Assembly: GCF_029960785.1 (NCBI RefSeq)
Contig: NZ_JASBQE010000006.1
Location: 62,001-126,000 of the forward strand
Origin: Polyangium sp. 15x6
GTDB lineage: Bacteria > Myxococcota_A > Polyangia > Polyangiales > Polyangiaceae
Direction of reading: 5' to 3'
DNA length: 64,000 bases
Numbering within the stretch: the stretch's first letter is position 1; each line of letters begins with the position of its first letter. The position numbers were made by a program, and so were the translations under genes. The notes under the pieces were generated by a model. It saw only the letters and a list, made by a program, of their open reading frames with translations. It ran no database searches and was not told the DNA's origin. Shown in pieces: positions 30,943-42,597 of the stretch.

Positions 30943-31467
30943 ATGATGAACGCGCGCTTCCTTCGTATCTGCGTCGTGGCGCTCGGCGCGCCTCTCGTCG
31001 TCGCGCTCGCGGCCGGTTGTCCGGGCACGTTGACCGAGGAGGAGAAGGCGATCTTCCAGGGCGGCGGCGCTTGCCCGGACGTGCCTGCCATGCTCGCGGC
31101 GAAATGCGGCACGGCGAACTGCCACGCGTCTGGCTCGACGACGGTGGACCTCGCCTCGCCGAACCTGGAGTCGCGGCTCGTGAGCGTCGCGGGGACCGAG
31201 TCATGCGGGAGCGTGATCCTGGCGAACCCGATCGACGCGGCGGGCAGCCTGATCTACGCGAAGCTCCTGGATCCGCCGCCGTGCGGGCTGAAGATGCCGC
31301 TCGGCGGTTCGATGAGCGATCTCGAGATCAACTGCGTGAAGCTCTGGATCGAGAGCCTCGATCCGAACGCGGGCCCAGGCTCGGGCGGCATGGGTGGCAT
31401 GGGCGGCGCCGGTGGCATGGGCGGCGCCGGCGGCATGGGCGGCGGCATGGGCGGCGGAGGTGGGTGA
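30943..31467 (+). CDS. Small lipoprotein with cytochrome-like Cys motif and Gly/Met-rich tail
   Basis: 174 residues from ATG 30943 with GAGGAG just upstream. The lipoprotein signal is VVALAAGC. The mature protein has AKCGTANCHASG, in which C-x4-C-H is close to the CxxCH heme motif of the planctomycete cytochrome-type domains that often precede DUF1587/1592 proteins. The rest of that small domain is recognisable (LDPPPCGLKMPLGGSMSD, VKLWIESL). The last 45 residues are GGMGG/GAGG repeats. The spacing differs from canonical heme c, so heme attachment is uncertain. It is followed by the hairpin-array intergenic element. Confidence 0.8.
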   Translation: MMNARFLRICVVALGAPLVVALAAGCPGTLTEEEKAIFQGGGACPDVPAMLAAKCGTANCHASGSTTVDLASPNLESRLVSVAGTESCGSVILANPIDAAGSLIYAKLLDPPPCGLKMPLGGSMSDLEINCVKLWIESLDPNAGPGSGGMGGMGGAGGMGGAGGMGGGMGGGGG

Positions 31468-31478
31468 GGACCCCTTTC

Positions 31479-31565
31479 GCTCGAGGTCGACCGCCAGCGA
31501 AGGTGGGCGAGCACCACTTTCGCCCGGGGTCGACCCCCGGCGAAGGTGGGCGAGCACCACTTTCG
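31479..31565 (+). repeat. Two tandem ~43-nt direct repeats
   Basis: Two imperfect copies with a 43-nt period share an identical 26-nt core at 31497-31522 and 31540-31565, each preceded by a GGTCGAC-type sequence. They lie between the lipoprotein stop and the hairpin-array unit. They are absent from the sister locus at 41.6 kb, so they are an optional neighbour of the element. Confidence 0.75.
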
Positions 31566-31567
31566 GT

Positions 31568-31687
31568 GAAGCCGCTTCGCTGGGGCTTTGCCCCAGGCCC
31601 CACCAGGGGCTGTCCGCCCCTGGACCCGGACCAGCGCAAGCGCTGGACTCGGGGTCGATGAACTGCGCTCCGCGCAGTTCATCGAAC
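31568..31687 (+). repeat. Hairpin-array unit A-left (sense to the upstream lipoprotein gene)
   Basis: The 120-nt unit contains four hairpins. They are CTGGGGC/GCCCCAG (31580-31596), CCAGGGGC/GCCCCTGG (31603-31623), CCAGCGC-AA-GCGCTGG (31631-31646) and a 14-bp perfect stem TCGATGAACTGCGC/GCGCAGTTCATCGA (31655-31685). It matches 41608-41727 at 117 of 120 positions and is an inverted, ~80% similar relative of 31750-31866. No coding potential is evident. Confidence 0.9.
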
Positions 31688-31708
31688 GAGCCGGGGTTCA
31701 AGACCGGC

Positions 31709-31739
31709 GACGGCCCTGCCAGCGACGGGCAGGGCCGTC
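31709..31739. repeat. Central 12-bp perfect hairpin of element A
   Basis: GACGGCCCTGCC (31709-31720) pairs exactly with GGCAGGGCCGTC (31728-31739), in the spacer between the two inverted units. The sister locus has unrelated sequence in this position but also forms a stem there (41738-41809), so the spacer keeps symmetry but not sequence. Confidence 0.75.
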
Positions 31740-31749
31740 CCACCGGCCT

Positions 31750-31866
31750 GTGGGAAAAACTGCGCGGAGCGCAGTTTTTCCCCCTGAGGTCCAGGGCTTG
31801 CCCTGGTCCGGGTCGAGGGGCGGATAGCCCCCGCGGGGCCCGGGGCAGCGCCCCGGCGCAACGGCC
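31750..31866 (-). repeat. Hairpin-array unit A-right (sense to the DUF2288 gene)
   Basis: Inverted copy of the unit. It contains GGGAAAAACTGCGC/GCGCAGTTTTTCCC (31752-31782, 14 bp, loop GGA), CCAGGGC-TT-GCCCTGG (31791-31806), GGGGC/GCCCC (31817-31831) and CCGGGGC-AGC-GCCCCGG (31840-31856). It ends 3 nt from the stop codon of the minus-strand gene at 31870, so it would form that mRNA's 3' end. It corresponds to 41820-41937. Confidence 0.9.
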
Positions 31867-31869
31867 CCT

Positions 31870-32166
31870 CTAAGACAAAGCCTTCGCGGGGGGCCGTCGG
31901 ATCAAGACGAACGGCTGCACGATGGCCGCGAGGAAGCGCGTGCTCGCGTCGAGTGACCAGCGCGTGAGCTCCTCGGCCGTGGGCTTCTGGAGTTTGCCTG
32001 CGCGGATCCACGCGTCGACGGAGGGCACGTCGTTCTTTGCGAGGGCCACGCCGACGTCGAGCAGATCGAGCGCGTCGTCGACGATGATCACGGCGTCGCG
32101 CGCCAGGTGCGCGCGGAGGTCGCTCCAGTGGACGTCTCCGAGGGTCTCGGCGATGCGTTCGCGCAT
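31870..32166 (-). CDS. DUF2288 family protein
   Basis: 98 residues (MRERIAETLGDVHWSDLRAHL). The pattern matches the short DUF2288 family as I remember it: an N-terminal helix, then VIIVDDALDLLDVGVALAKND, then VDAWIRAGKLQKPTAEELTRW and a final FLAAIVQPFVLI. Members are small cytoplasmic proteins of unknown role found in proteobacteria and cyanobacteria. It is divergent from hisA across 56 nt. The 3' end abuts the hairpin-array element. Confidence 0.8.
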   Translation of the reverse strand: MRERIAETLGDVHWSDLRAHLARDAVIIVDDALDLLDVGVALAKNDVPSVDAWIRAGKLQKPTAEELTRWSLDASTRFLAAIVQPFVLIRRPPAKALS

Positions 32167-38769: not shown

Positions 38770-40653
38770 ATGCGTAGACGATGGACGTGGCTGTGCGCCG
38801 CGACGCTCTCGGGAGCCGCGCTCGCGGCAGGGTGCGGCGGAGCCGACGAGGATCTCGGGTTCAACTCGGGCCCGGGCGTCGGGGGCGGCGCAGGACAAGG
38901 CGGCGCGGGCCAGGGCGGAGCCGCGCAGGGCGGCGCGGGCCAAGGCGGCGGAGGGCCCAAGGGCCCCGTCGATCTACGCGCCGACGTGAACCGCAACGGG
39001 AGCGTCGATTTCGACGATCCCACCGAGGATCAAGGCGAGGACACGTGGGACGCCGCGCACGGCGCGATCTTCCTCGCCAACGTCGACGACGATCAGGCGC
39101 AGTGCCCCTCGAGCGGCCAGGCCGATTCACAGCTCGTCGCGTGCAACGACGCCGCCGACACGATCGTGAACGGCGAGGATGATCTCGCGGATCTCGCGCG
39201 GATCGTGGCCGCGCCGTGGCCGGAGGCGTACGCCGATGCCGAGGGCACGATCACGGTGAGCGCGCCGGAGCATGTCCGGCTCTTCCGGAAGACCGCGCTG
39301 GGGTCGTTCGAGGTCTTCAACGTCGCGACGAAGATCCGCCAGGCGGATCTCGCGGCCGGCGTCGAGTTCGCGATCGAGGCGCTCGACATCGTGCGCGATG
39401 AGACGGTGTGGGACGGGTTCGTCGACGTCTCGCTCACGGTGACGAGCACCGATTCCTCGGGCGCGCCGATGCCGGAGGTGAAGGACACGGTGCGGCTCCG
39501 CGTGGCGCCGGTGCTCTTCCGCCACCACCTGCACCCGGCGCGCACGATCTACGCGGCGAACGTGCAAGGGCAGTCGTCGTCGTCGACGGCGTTCCGCAAC
39601 GATCTGAAGGCGGCCATGCAGACCGCGGGCCTCAGCGAGCCGCTCTACGAGCACGCGAGCTCGGATCAGTGGACGCAGGACTACTTCGAAACCGCGTACA
39701 CCTCGATGCCCGGCCCCGGCGGCAAGCAGCAGGTGATGCACGTGAACTTCCGCTCGGCGAACCACACGGGCAACCTGCGCCCCGCGGGCCGGATCGTGTT
39801 CGCGCTCCGCGGCAAGGACGTCGGGGGTCTCGCGCAGTTCGATTCAACGCACTCGAACCAGATGGATTCGCTGAACTCGTTCGGCAATCTGGAGACCGTT
39901 CCGCCCTACACGCACGACGGCAAGAGCTACCCGAACGGACGTGTGCTGCGCGGATCGACGCCCTCGTACTACCCGGACAAGAGCTTCGACCGCATGGTGA
40001 GCGCGCAAGGCGCGCAGCCGATCATCTACATCGATACGGAGTGGCTCCTGGTCGGTCACGTCGACGAGACGACGACGTTCGTCAAGGCCAACACGCCGCG
40101 CGGCTGGGCGCTCGGACTGAACGACGCCGCGCTCGCGAAGCAGATGCTCGAGGACGCGAAAGCGGCCGGGCACGGCAACGTGCCCATGTTCGTCGGCCAA
40201 TACTGGTGGGGCAACGTGCCCGCCGAGGTCACGATCGACGAGGTGCTGGACGACCCCGACGTGATGAACGAGAGCGCATCCTCCGCGGTCGAGGTCGCCG
40301 GGCAGCTCGAGGTGCTGAAGCAGGAGACGGGCATCACGGACGCGGAGATCATCCGCATCCCGTTCTTGCATCAGCCAGCGGAGGGCTACTCGGTCGCCTA
40401 CCAGCCGGGCACGGTGAACGGGATCTACCTCTCGGACACGGTCTTCGGCGCGCCGAAGCCGCACGGCCCGATCATCAACGGAGAGGACATCTTCGAGGCG
40501 CAGCTCATCGAGGCGTTCAAGCCCTACGGCATCACGGTGAGCTTCATCGAGAACTGGAACCTCTACCACCGCAACGACGGAGAGGTGCATTGCGGGTCGA
40601 ACACGACGCGGGTCGTGCCGGAAACGAACCCCTGGTGGGGAGGTGCTCTATGA
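38770..40653 (+). CDS. Secreted peptidylarginine deiminase (PAD)-type lipoprotein
   Basis: 627 residues from ATG 38770, preceded by GAGGTG about 8 nt upstream. The lipoprotein signal ends at ALAAGC22. A GAGQGG-repeat linker (about 36-64) and an EF-hand-like DVNRNGSVD (72-80) precede the PAD middle and catalytic domains. The four PAD catalytic residues are in place: Asp304 (QDYFE), His430 and Asp432 (GHVDE), Cys608 (GEVHCGSN). LNSFGNLETVPP matches the conserved PAD SFGNLE motif. The spacings (126 and 178 residues) are close to human PAD4 (D350, H471, C645). The predicted activity is calcium-dependent citrullination of arginine at the cell surface or in the periplasm. It is coupled to a HEAT-repeat gene. 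Confidence 0.9.
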   Translation: MRRRWTWLCAATLSGAALAAGCGGADEDLGFNSGPGVGGGAGQGGAGQGGAAQGGAGQGGGGPKGPVDLRADVNRNGSVDFDDPTEDQGEDTWDAAHGAIFLANVDDDQAQCPSSGQADSQLVACNDAADTIVNGEDDLADLARIVAAPWPEAYADAEGTITVSAPEHVRLFRKTALGSFEVFNVATKIRQADLAAGVEFAIEALDIVRDETVWDGFVDVSLTVTSTDSSGAPMPEVKDTVRLRVAPVLFRHHLHPARTIYAANVQGQSSSSTAFRNDLKAAMQTAGLSEPLYEHASSDQWTQDYFETAYTSMPGPGGKQQVMHVNFRSANHTGNLRPAGRIVFALRGKDVGGLAQFDSTHSNQMDSLNSFGNLETVPPYTHDGKSYPNGRVLRGSTPSYYPDKSFDRMVSAQGAQPIIYIDTEWLLVGHVDETTTFVKANTPRGWALGLNDAALAKQMLEDAKAAGHGNVPMFVGQYWWGNVPAEVTIDEVLDDPDVMNESASSAVEVAGQLEVLKQETGITDAEIIRIPFLHQPAEGYSVAYQPGTVNGIYLSDTVFGAPKPHGPIINGEDIFEAQLIEAFKPYGITVSFIENWNLYHRNDGEVHCGSNTTRVVPETNPWWGGAL

Positions 40654-41600
40654 AGGCGAAGCGTGTCTTGGGGATCGGCCTGGTCGCAGCAGGGCTCTTG
40701 CTCTCGGCGCTCACGGGCGTGGCGAGCGCAGCCGAGGGTGTGTGGATCGGTCCGGATCGGATCGCGGAGCAGGATCGGGCGGCGCTCGTGCAGGCGATCG
40801 GAGTCGCGCGCAAGGAGAACCCCACGGCGTTCGATACGCTCGCGCGGCTGCGCGAGGACATGCCGGCGCTCGACGCGCAAAAGCGCGGTCGGTACGTGCC
40901 CGTCGCGGCGATCTTGAAGGGCCTCGGCAAGGACGCGCTCCTGCCGATGCTGAACGAGCTCGCGGTGGACGCGAAGCCGCGCGGAGACATGCCCGACGAC
41001 GCGTGGCACGCATGGCGCGTGGGCCTCGTGGAAGCCGTGGGCGCACTCAGGGACGGCCGCGCAGCGCCCGTGCTCTTCGCGATCATCGACACGACGGAGA
41101 TGGACACGGATCTCGTGCGAGCCGCAGCCTCGGCGCTCGGCAAGCTCGGCACGGACGCAGCAGCGCGGAAGCTCGTCGGCATGGCGAAAAAAGAGGGCCC
41201 GAAGCAGAAGGGCGTGCTCGCAGGGATGGGCGATTGCCGGAGGCTCGTCGTGGCCGAGGCACTCGCATCCACGCTGCGCGCGCACCCGGACGCAGAGACG
41301 GCGATCCTCGTGGCGCGATCGCTCGGCGACGTGGGCTCGGCGTGGGCCTGGAAGACGCCGATCATCGCGGCAAGCGGCGAGGAGGATGCCGTGCGCGCAG
41401 CTGCGTCGCAGGCGCTCGTGGATTCGTACCTGCGATACGAAGGCGAGGCGCGTACAGCCATCACGAAGGCCGTGCTGATGGTGGATCACCCGTCGACGCC
41501 AGCGCTCGTGGAGGCCGCGAAGCGCAGCGCTCGCCCGGGGGATCAAGCAGCACTCGACGCGCTGCTCGAGCGGTTCAAGAACAGCCCGCTCCACCGCTGA
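40650..41600 (+). CDS. Exported HEAT-repeat protein coupled to the PAD
   Basis: 316 residues from ATG 40650, overlapping the PAD stop (ATGA), with GGGGAGG upstream. A signal peptide (VLGIGLVAAGLLLSALTGVASA) is followed by paired-helix HEAT/PBS-lyase-like repeats (VEAVGALRDGRAAPVLFAII; VRAAASALGKLGTDAAARKL; ILVARSLGDVGSAWAWKTPI; VRAAASQALVDSYLRYEGEA). Such solenoids bind proteins, so it may be the PAD's partner or substrate, but that is inference from coupling alone. The 3' end leads directly into the hairpin-array element. Confidence 0.85.
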   Translation: MKAKRVLGIGLVAAGLLLSALTGVASAAEGVWIGPDRIAEQDRAALVQAIGVARKENPTAFDTLARLREDMPALDAQKRGRYVPVAAILKGLGKDALLPMLNELAVDAKPRGDMPDDAWHAWRVGLVEAVGALRDGRAAPVLFAIIDTTEMDTDLVRAAASALGKLGTDAAARKLVGMAKKEGPKQKGVLAGMGDCRRLVVAEALASTLRAHPDAETAILVARSLGDVGSAWAWKTPIIAASGEEDAVRAAASQALVDSYLRYEGEARTAITKAVLMVDHPSTPALVEAAKRSARPGDQAALDALLERFKNSPLHR

Positions 41601-41607
41601 GCGATCC

Positions 41608-41727
41608 GAAGCCGCTGCGCTGGGGCTTTGCCCCAGGCCCCACCAGGGGCTGTCCGCCCCTGGACCCGGACCAGCGCAAGCGCTGGACCCGGGGTCGATG
41701 AACTGCGCTTCGCGCAGTTCATCGAAC
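41608..41727 (+). repeat. Hairpin-array unit B-left (sense to the HEAT gene)
   Basis: 120 nt with the same four hairpins as 31568-31687 (offset 10,040). It differs at three positions, of which the base 41710 change (C to T) lies in a loop. The terminal stem is TCGATGAACTGCGC/GCGCAGTTCATCGA at 41695-41725. It starts 8 nt after the HEAT gene's stop codon. Confidence 0.9.
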
Positions 41728-41737
41728 AGGCCAGATC

Positions 41738-41825
41738 AAGACCACCAACCACCTTGCCAACCGAGACAGCCGCGATGCCATTTCGACGGGCAACGCTGTC
41801 TCTGGTCTTCCAACGGGCCCGTTGG
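41738..41825. repeat. Central stems of element B
   Basis: AAGACCA (41738-41744) pairs with TGGTCTT (41803-41809) and encloses GAGACAGC/GCTGTCTC. It is followed by a 16-nt perfect palindrome CCAACGGGCCCGTTGG (41810-41825). The sequence is unrelated to the spacer of element A but again symmetrical. Confidence 0.7.
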
Positions 41826-41937
41826 AAGAACTGCGCATCGCGCAGTTCTTCCACCCCGAGTCCAGGGCTTGCCCTGGTTCGGGTCGAGGGGCGAACAGCC
41901 CCCGCGGGGTCCGGGGCAGCGCCCCGGCGCTACGGCA
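41820..41937 (-). repeat. Hairpin-array unit B-right (sense to queE)
   Basis: Matches 31750-31866 inverted. The terminal stem is TGGAAGAACTGCGC/GCGCAGTTCTTCCA (41823-41853, loop ATC). It differs from the A copy at two stem positions, and both partners change together (G-C to T-A and A-T to G-C). CCAGGGC-TT-GCCCTGG and CCGGGGC-AGC-GCCCCGG are conserved. It ends 6 nt from the queE stop codon. Confidence 0.9.
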
Positions 41938-41943
41938 CCAGCC

Positions 41944-42597
41944 TCAAACGCCCTGCACGTCCGCGCCCCAGATCACCTTGTGGAGCTGGACTTGCACGCG
42001 CACGAGTAGGCTGTCCTCGAGCACCCAGGCCACGAGATCCTTTGGGGAGAGTTTGCCCCAGACGGCGGATGCGAGCAGCGTGCAGCCGAGCCGCGCGAGG
42101 TCGCGCTCGTGGATCACGGTGCGCATCCATTCGTAGTCGGCGCGATCGGCCAGCACGAACTTGATCTCGTCGTGCGGGCCGATGTGCGCGAGGTTCGACC
42201 AGCGGTTGCGATGGGTCTCGCCGCTGCCGGGCGCTTTGAGGTCCATGATCTTGTGGACGCGGGGATCGACGCGAGAGACGTCGGCCTCGCCGCTCGTCTC
42301 CACGAGCACCGTCCGACCCGCGTCGCAGAGCTCGCGCAGGAGTGGGATCGCGCCGGGTTGCAGGAGCGGCTCGCCTCCCGTGAGCTCGACGAGCGGCGTG
42401 CCGAATGCGAGCGCCTTCTCGCGCACCTCGCTGCGCGGCATCCGTTTTCCGCCGTAAAACGCCTGCGTCGTGTCGCACCAGGCGCAACGCAGGTTGCAGC
42501 CGGTCAAACGCACGAACGTGCACGGCAGCCCGGCGAACGTGGATTCGCCCTGGATGCTCGAATAAATCTCGTGGACGACGAGGGTGTCTTCCTTCAC
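41944..42597 (-). CDS. queE: 7-carboxy-7-deazaguanine synthase
   Basis: Radical SAM enzyme that forms the deazaguanine ring in queuosine and archaeosine-type precursor synthesis. 217 residues from GTG 42597. It shows EIYSSIQGESTFAG, the cluster motif CNLRCAWCDT (C-x3-C-x2-C), and the SAM-binding GGEP in VELTGGEPLLQ. Other que genes are not in the window. It is the last gene of the fabH-nadC-birA-queE run, 14 nt after birA. Confidence 0.95.
   Translation of the reverse strand: MKEDTLVVHEIYSSIQGESTFAGLPCTFVRLTGCNLRCAWCDTTQAFYGGKRMPRSEVREKALAFGTPLVELTGGEPLLQPGAIPLLRELCDAGRTVLVETSGEADVSRVDPRVHKIMDLKAPGSGETHRNRWSNLAHIGPHDEIKFVLADRADYEWMRTVIHERDLARLGCTLLASAVWGKLSPKDLVAWVLEDSLLVRVQVQLHKVIWGADVQGV

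Follow-up and report, generated by a model that had tools for sequence, protein, structure and literature searches.

A MITE-like repeat of Polyangium with two structured arms, preferentially found between closely spaced convergent genes

Bacterial MITEs are short, non-coding elements with terminal inverted repeats and target duplications that are present in many copies, and the NEMIS/Correia and RU-type repeats are structured mobile repeats of 100–170 bp that lie beside genes. To our knowledge, it is not settled how very G+C-rich bacteria end converging transcripts, or what draws palindromic repeats to convergent 3' ends. The REP sequences offer a close precedent, and in the portion of PMC3733652 drawn on here, conv-REPs mostly lie no farther than 20 bp from either 3' end, have unlike partners and structured spacers, and sometimes supply the stop codon with their own end. 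In the open-licence PMC literature, which covers the field in part, none of the papers among the matches listed dealt with the Polyangium element described below, with repeats of Polyangium in general or with MITEs of myxobacteria.

The element was encountered in the window, by which we mean the whole 64,000-nt stretch of Polyangium sp. 15x6 DNA that was analysed. With the REP, BIME and REPIN elements, as that portion of PMC3733652 presents them, it shares high copy number, an intergenic location, inverted dimers, unlike partners, structured spacers and a position at 3' ends, but its units are ~105 nt long and comprise four hairpins and a loop-linker helix in place of one hairpin of 20–40 bp, it has terminal inverted repeats and duplications of 8–9 bp, and no Y1/RAYT match was found in three of six genomes. 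It behaves as a REP dimer but is a MITE by its ends. Like bacterial MITEs, it is short and multi-copy, with no coding capacity seen, and has terminal inverted repeats and target duplications; unlike them, most of its copies lack their ends near the stop codon and keep the inner hairpins, it prefers tight convergent gaps, and no parent transposon was found for it in the ~2.3 Mb searched. Intrinsic (Rho-independent) bidirectional terminators resemble it in placing G+C-rich hairpins right after the stops on both strands of convergent pairs, but the Polyangium element has no T tract after a hairpin, combines four hairpins with conservation over a long sequence, and is mobile. The NEMIS/Correia and RU-type repeats are likewise structured, mobile and next to genes, and are set apart by description only, the Polyangium element being two-armed, larger and from another taxon.

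The junction in question lies between a forward-strand gene (30943–31467, stop at 31467), which had no Pfam match and whose label of “lipoprotein” comes from the original prediction only, and a reverse-strand gene (31870–32166) that was correctly recognised at the outset as DUF2288 (E 2.7e-28). What had been described there was a pair of inverted relatives, each with three to four hairpins, abutting the two stop codons, and this observation was confirmed in part. Unit A occupies 31580–31685 on the + strand (hp1 31580–31596, hp2 31603–31623, hp3 31631–31646, hp4 31655–31685) and unit B, inverted, 31752–31856 on the − strand (hp4 31752–31782, hp3 31791–31806, hp2 at about 31814–31835, hp1 31840–31856). 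The two are indeed inverted relatives, with arms (31592–31694 and 31743–31845) that are 78% complementary; their 14-bp terminal stems, with the AACTGCGC core, are perfect at 31655–31685 and 31752–31782, and their folding was strong against shuffles (z of −6.66 and −4.19 per unit, and −18.65 for 31468–31869). Four hairpins per unit proved to be conserved, and there is on top of them a loop-linker helix, of the pseudoknot type, that had been missed; in unit A (31613–31630, + strand) it would join UCC at 31613–31615 with GGA at 31628–31630. The spacing to the genes did not hold up on either side. From the left stop at 31467 to the first conserved hairpin at 31580 there are 112 nt, mostly made up of a 43-nt tandem repeat in three copies (31454–31582, + strand) that separates unit A from the stop of the left gene and is outside the family. 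On the right, where 3 nt had been given, the distance is 13 nt, from the last base of the outermost conserved hairpin (31856) to the stop codon (31870–31872) that faces unit B.

The sequence separating the units (31686–31751, 66 nt between the terminal stems in this copy, with an inverted repeat of its own at 31709–31739) is a conserved part of the element. The left outer end is a remnant (31565–31579, + strand), and the terminal inverted repeat TGAGCATTGGTCTC is unrecognisable on both sides of the window copy. That the junction lacks a T-tract terminator was upheld, as there were 0 terminator-like sites in 31400–31950 (0.4 in shuffles), and Rfam returned 0 matches at gathering score in the window, the best permissive E of 0.39 being far below the family cut-off. 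The core palindrome occurs four times in the window and was not seen in 100 shuffles. A second copy of the element is located at 41616–41931, between the convergent genes at 40650–41600 (+) and 41944–42597 (−). This copy is a full pair, its neighbours encode a HEAT-repeat and a radical-SAM protein, and the left gene's stop is a TGA with GC after it, in keeping with the end of the element itself. In the congener G004, the counterpart of the first junction has a single inverted unit with a different stem type, and at that junction in the other four congeners no unit was found by the search. By eye, the tandem repeats there are similar to the 43-nt type in G004, and those in G001, G002, G003 and G005 are other repeats of ~22 nt, degenerate; the G002 counterpart (L143) also has a different inverted repeat of ~100 bp, CAGGCTGTTGAGAAA...TTTCTCAACAGCCTG.

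A search for the family in its own genome and in relatives, the check proposed with the original prediction, revealed hundreds of copies, genus-wide. The 13.4-Mb genome has 488 exact stem cores of the form AACTGCGC-NNN-GCGCAGTT (i.e., AACTGCGCNNNGCGCAGTT sites), with 0 for a control in which the pattern was read backwards, and the congeners G001 to G005 have 54, 434, 338, 230 and 217, respectively; 91 other genomes from the same family and order had one core site in total, in one genome. A covariance model of hairpins 1–3, built from 48 of 105 distinct cores and used to score at most 50 candidates per genome under strict filters, matched six of 97 genomes, exactly the genus Polyangium. Among named genomes, a 28-base pattern gave at least 76 loci, all of them Polyangium among the matches listed, in the records of P. 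fumosum DSM 14668, P. sp. y55x31 and P. sp. 6x1, two of which appear to be the congeners G003 and G004; this identifies the genus but is no proof that the family is confined to it. Among the genomes searched, then, the family was found only in Polyangium.

Individual elements were studied in a sample of the own genome, 1.556 Mb on seven contigs picked for length and for the presence of hits, which is rich in elements because 95 of the 488 stems fall in this 12% of the genome. A profile search, which favours intact units, identified 130 units in 81 elements, i.e., 49 pairs (always + then −), 12 single + units and 20 single − units, and the ratio of stems suggests, as a rough figure, ~400 elements in the whole genome. 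Stem density is very uneven, with 3 exact stems in 348 kb on contig C209 and 31 in 354 kb on C198. There is also a class of single units without a partner, with the stem TGCATCGACCGC and an hp1 of the CCGGGGTTTCACCCCGG type (e.g., L076:3619-3742 and L096:4003-4126), and these possibly form a sister family that has separate ends.

Alignment of 121 units (eight of the 130 could not be referenced, and one degenerate unit of the remaining 122 was left out) gave each unit four hairpins and a covarying loop-linker helix. Paired changes were seen in hp1 through hp4: 95.2% of cells were paired versus 87.1% in shuffles, cells with both sides changed numbered 359 versus 112, the score was 0.218 versus 0.092, and 18 of 39 pairs had a double change versus 13.6. 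When partner columns were slid by 1–3 positions, only 33–44% of cells were paired. Two points weigh against so favourable a view, namely that further pair types did not exceed shuffles (29 vs. 30.5 with 121 units, 13 vs. 14.8 with 48), and that template switching at the level of DNA can be an alternative source of the paired changes in hairpins. The two outer pairs of hp2 are broken in 37 of the 121 rows, and in a 48-unit alignment that places those rows otherwise, hp2 cells are 100% paired and the whole structure 98.6%; one pair of hp3 is broken in 22 of 118 rows. The loop-linker helix consists of three pairs between the hp2 loop (UCC or UUC) and the linker (GGA or GAA), with 100% of cells paired and double changes at two of the three, 19 sequences having gone from C-G to U-A and one from U-A to C-G. 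Judged from these alignments, the helix is well supported but not proven, given its small size and the chance that a single ancestral change was passed on to many rows.

In none of the 49 pairs are the two terminal stems identical (in two, the finder missed part of the stem owing to a mismatch), and such unlike stems within pairs are expected of an element that moves as one piece. One giant hairpin would be energetically strong, and was ruled against by this absence of identical stems and by the paired changes counted within arms. Between copies, compared for 30 of the 49 paired elements, the arms are 93% and 89% identical with ~1% gaps, and the spacer, which has a median length of 87 nt, complementary ends and a conserved middle, is 80% identical with 19.5% gaps. 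Units that have lost the terminal repeat keep their fold: none of the 20 scored pairs is broken in 104 of 105 such units, and the 14-bp hp4 is whole in 86 of 88. For units with the terminal repeat, the scored pairs are intact in 16 of 16 and hp4 is whole in 15 of 16. These counts pass over gapped pairs, leave unscored five of 25 core pairs that were misaligned or gapped, and cover hp4 in 104 of the 121 units; moreover, copies without their ends may be young, which would weaken the argument from intact structure.

A full copy is ~360 bp long and consists of an end repeat, unit A, the conserved spacer of ~87 nt, unit B inverted and the end repeat again. The terminal inverted repeat reads (T/C)TGAGCATTGGTCTC, and in some copies hp1 is preceded by a conserved stretch at the outer end, consisting of (T/C)TGAGCATTGGTCTCAT and ~13 nt more; the end repeat has 44 matches in the own genome and 0 in the control. 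Both ends are present, by eye, in six distinct copies (L259, L262, which is the same as L285, L272, L280, L288 and C77:84548), and four of these have an exact 8-bp direct repeat at the expected offset: ATCCTGGC in L259, CGGGACGG in L280 (9 bp by eye), TCAGCCGC in L288 and CGCCAGGT in C77:84548. The other two have no clear duplication, which counts against the interpretation. Among 30 loci with the end repeat, 25 had a partner unit that was scored, and three of these 25 had a duplication versus 0.42 by random pairing. Over all 47 scored pairs there was no clear excess of direct repeats (scores of at least 8 in 14 vs. 8.0 expected, of at least 9 in 3 vs. 3.3) because most copies are without their ends, and the duplication signal thus rests on the doubly intact copies; the one such copy found in the at least 76 Polyangium loci had no duplication.

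Examination of 104 elements yielded 38 flank comparisons, and 13 of these revealed an empty site, recognised as the same junction without the element and with a gap of <60 nt. At the convergent junction C198:279117, 329 nt separate the stops in the own genome, and in G001, G003, G004 and G005 they overlap or are ≤12 nt apart. The terminal inverted repeats, the 8–9 bp duplications and the insertion polymorphism revealed by empty sites in congeners therefore make this a MITE-like, non-autonomous transposon. Target duplications of 8–9 bp would point to a DDE-type transposase. A search of ~2.3 Mb found no end repeat with 0–2 mismatches away from units, and no autonomous parent came to light in that part of the genomes; a single instance of the end repeat with 2 mismatches was noted in L223. 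At one junction, the own genome, G004 and G001 all have an element, with arm types that differ in each species, so that no clean orthologous test of decay is available there; we read these as separate insertions or gene conversion.

The location of the copies relative to genes (from a home-made gene caller) had been set beforehand as a check, and the expected enrichment between convergent genes was found. Seven of the 81 sampled elements touch contig edges, and the other 74 lie in 50 convergent, 15 tandem and nine divergent gaps, against 205 convergent among 1,169 neighbouring gene pairs in the background (odds ratio 12.6, P 3e-23). The three named Polyangium records repeated this, with 47 of 73 non-edge elements convergent (23 more at edges) and 104 of 130 outer units facing a gene end, 85 of them within 30 nt; only gene-relative positions are informative in these at least 76 loci, since they were picked for holding a stem. 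Relative to possible insertion points (gap plus 9), and with gaps measured minus the element and following any trimming, so that they could come out too short, convergent gaps of <30 bp have 27 times the expected number of elements, those of 30–60 bp 24 times and those of 60–120 bp 5.6 times, as opposed to only 1.2–1.3 times for convergent gaps of >120 bp and ≤1.1 times for every tandem and divergent bin. A gene end is faced by 98 of 123 units, 78 of them at ≤30 nt. Against a role at 3' ends stand the 25 of 123 units that face a gene start, the nine divergent elements of 74, mostly with good coding scores for their neighbours, and the single units in tandem gaps, only five in sense orientation versus two in antisense.

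How such elements arose and moved admits other explanations. That they are ordinary terminators that evolved in place and are alike by convergence is scarcely credible, for apart from their location after stop codons, the near-identical sequence at many loci, the conserved spacer, the duplications, the empty sites and the lack of a T tract all contradict it; as an account of origin it is already refuted, which says nothing on function. HUH transposition is not expected to leave target duplications of 8–9 bp such as the Polyangium copies have, and this is one reason why mobilisation as REP/BIME repeats by a RAYT (Y1/HUH) transposase is very improbable. In its favour, GTAG begins 21 of the 121 units, and the elements match the REP dimers in the portion of PMC3733652 used here in their inverted arrangement, the difference between the two arms, the complementarity of the spacer ends and the intergenic position at both 3' ends. 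Yet the units are ~105 nt with four hairpins, not a single palindrome of 20–40 bp, and GTAG in 21 of 121 units falls short of the GTAG or CGTC tag that such repeats have at one end. Y1_Tnp matches are present in G001 and G003, and there is no match in G002, G004 or G005, which have 217–434 stems each; the own genome has a single partial match, a fragment in a 3.2-kb locus (L126) without units. A RAYT/Y1 transposase was rejected as the mover on these grounds. By eye, the L126 fragment adjoins a frame resembling a tyrosine recombinase.

Two further alternatives concern what the arms do. DNA gyrase sites have been proposed for BIMEs, and positive supercoils gather at tight convergent junctions. 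Arms that act as DNA, as cruciforms or protein-binding sites that relieve supercoiling between converging polymerases, would suit both the preference for such junctions and the perfect palindromic stems, but the covariation of the loop-linker helix is more natural for RNA or single strands and the absence of identical terminal stems in all 49 pairs disfavours one large cruciform, making this improbable. A purely selfish MITE, with no host function, that survives where it does least harm, between convergent stops, is a stronger contender, though we still regard it as rather unlikely. Target duplications, empty sites and polymorphic copies agree with it, as do the ≤1.1-fold values for tandem and divergent gaps, and a 9-bp duplication would spare both of two overlapping stop codons. 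Tolerance alone, however, should yield hits in proportion to gap length, in place of 1.2–1.3 times expectation in long gaps versus 24–27 times below 60 bp; neutral tolerance does not explain that pattern, and targeted insertion could. Also against pure selfishness, 104 of 105 units without transposon ends show no broken pair, with the reservation that copies may be young.

On balance, we lean towards the view that the window feature is a copy, with no recognisable ends, of a MITE-like, non-autonomous Polyangium transposon whose arms are structured 3'-end modules, its copies being polymorphic and located in tight, stop-to-stop convergent gaps. The original prediction had offered a 3'-end module for convergent transcripts or a REP/MITE-like dispersed element, and both halves gain a measure of support: the family is dispersed and MITE-like, as its ends, duplications and empty sites attest, and it is not a REP of the RAYT type. 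Each arm would fold in the 3' UTR of the preceding gene and halt or protect the transcript, such that one insertion could provide two facing genes with separate 3' ends. The absence of a T tract from the window units is a point against this reading, and therefore the standard intrinsic terminator is not the model; the block to polymerase or to 3' exonucleases would come from the hairpins and pseudoknot. A two-sided transcript end would agree with the intact structure in units without ends, with the higher identity of the arms than of the spacer, with a location immediately behind stop codons and with the surplus of elements in the shortest gaps, and termination or 3'-end protection, as far as sequence comparison can suggest, would be the best role for the element. 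The bias to short convergent gaps may reflect selection for the 3'-end effect, insertion targeting, or both.

More tentatively, and as a bolder proposal that we hold with some doubt, the transposon may have become a source of bidirectional 3' ends throughout the genus: a mobile cassette of two RNA modules, each with a pseudoknot, that enters or is retained in gaps of a few nucleotides between convergent stops, sheds its transposon ends and thereafter acts for both genes as a common terminator or barrier to RNases. In the own genome, the boundaries of several contigs fall within an element (C77:5, C133:2, C6:33, C7:8 and others), and the repeat probably limits genome assembly in the genus. Since a given junction may be occupied in one species and empty in a close relative, what the gain of an element does to two facing genes is open to direct measurement.
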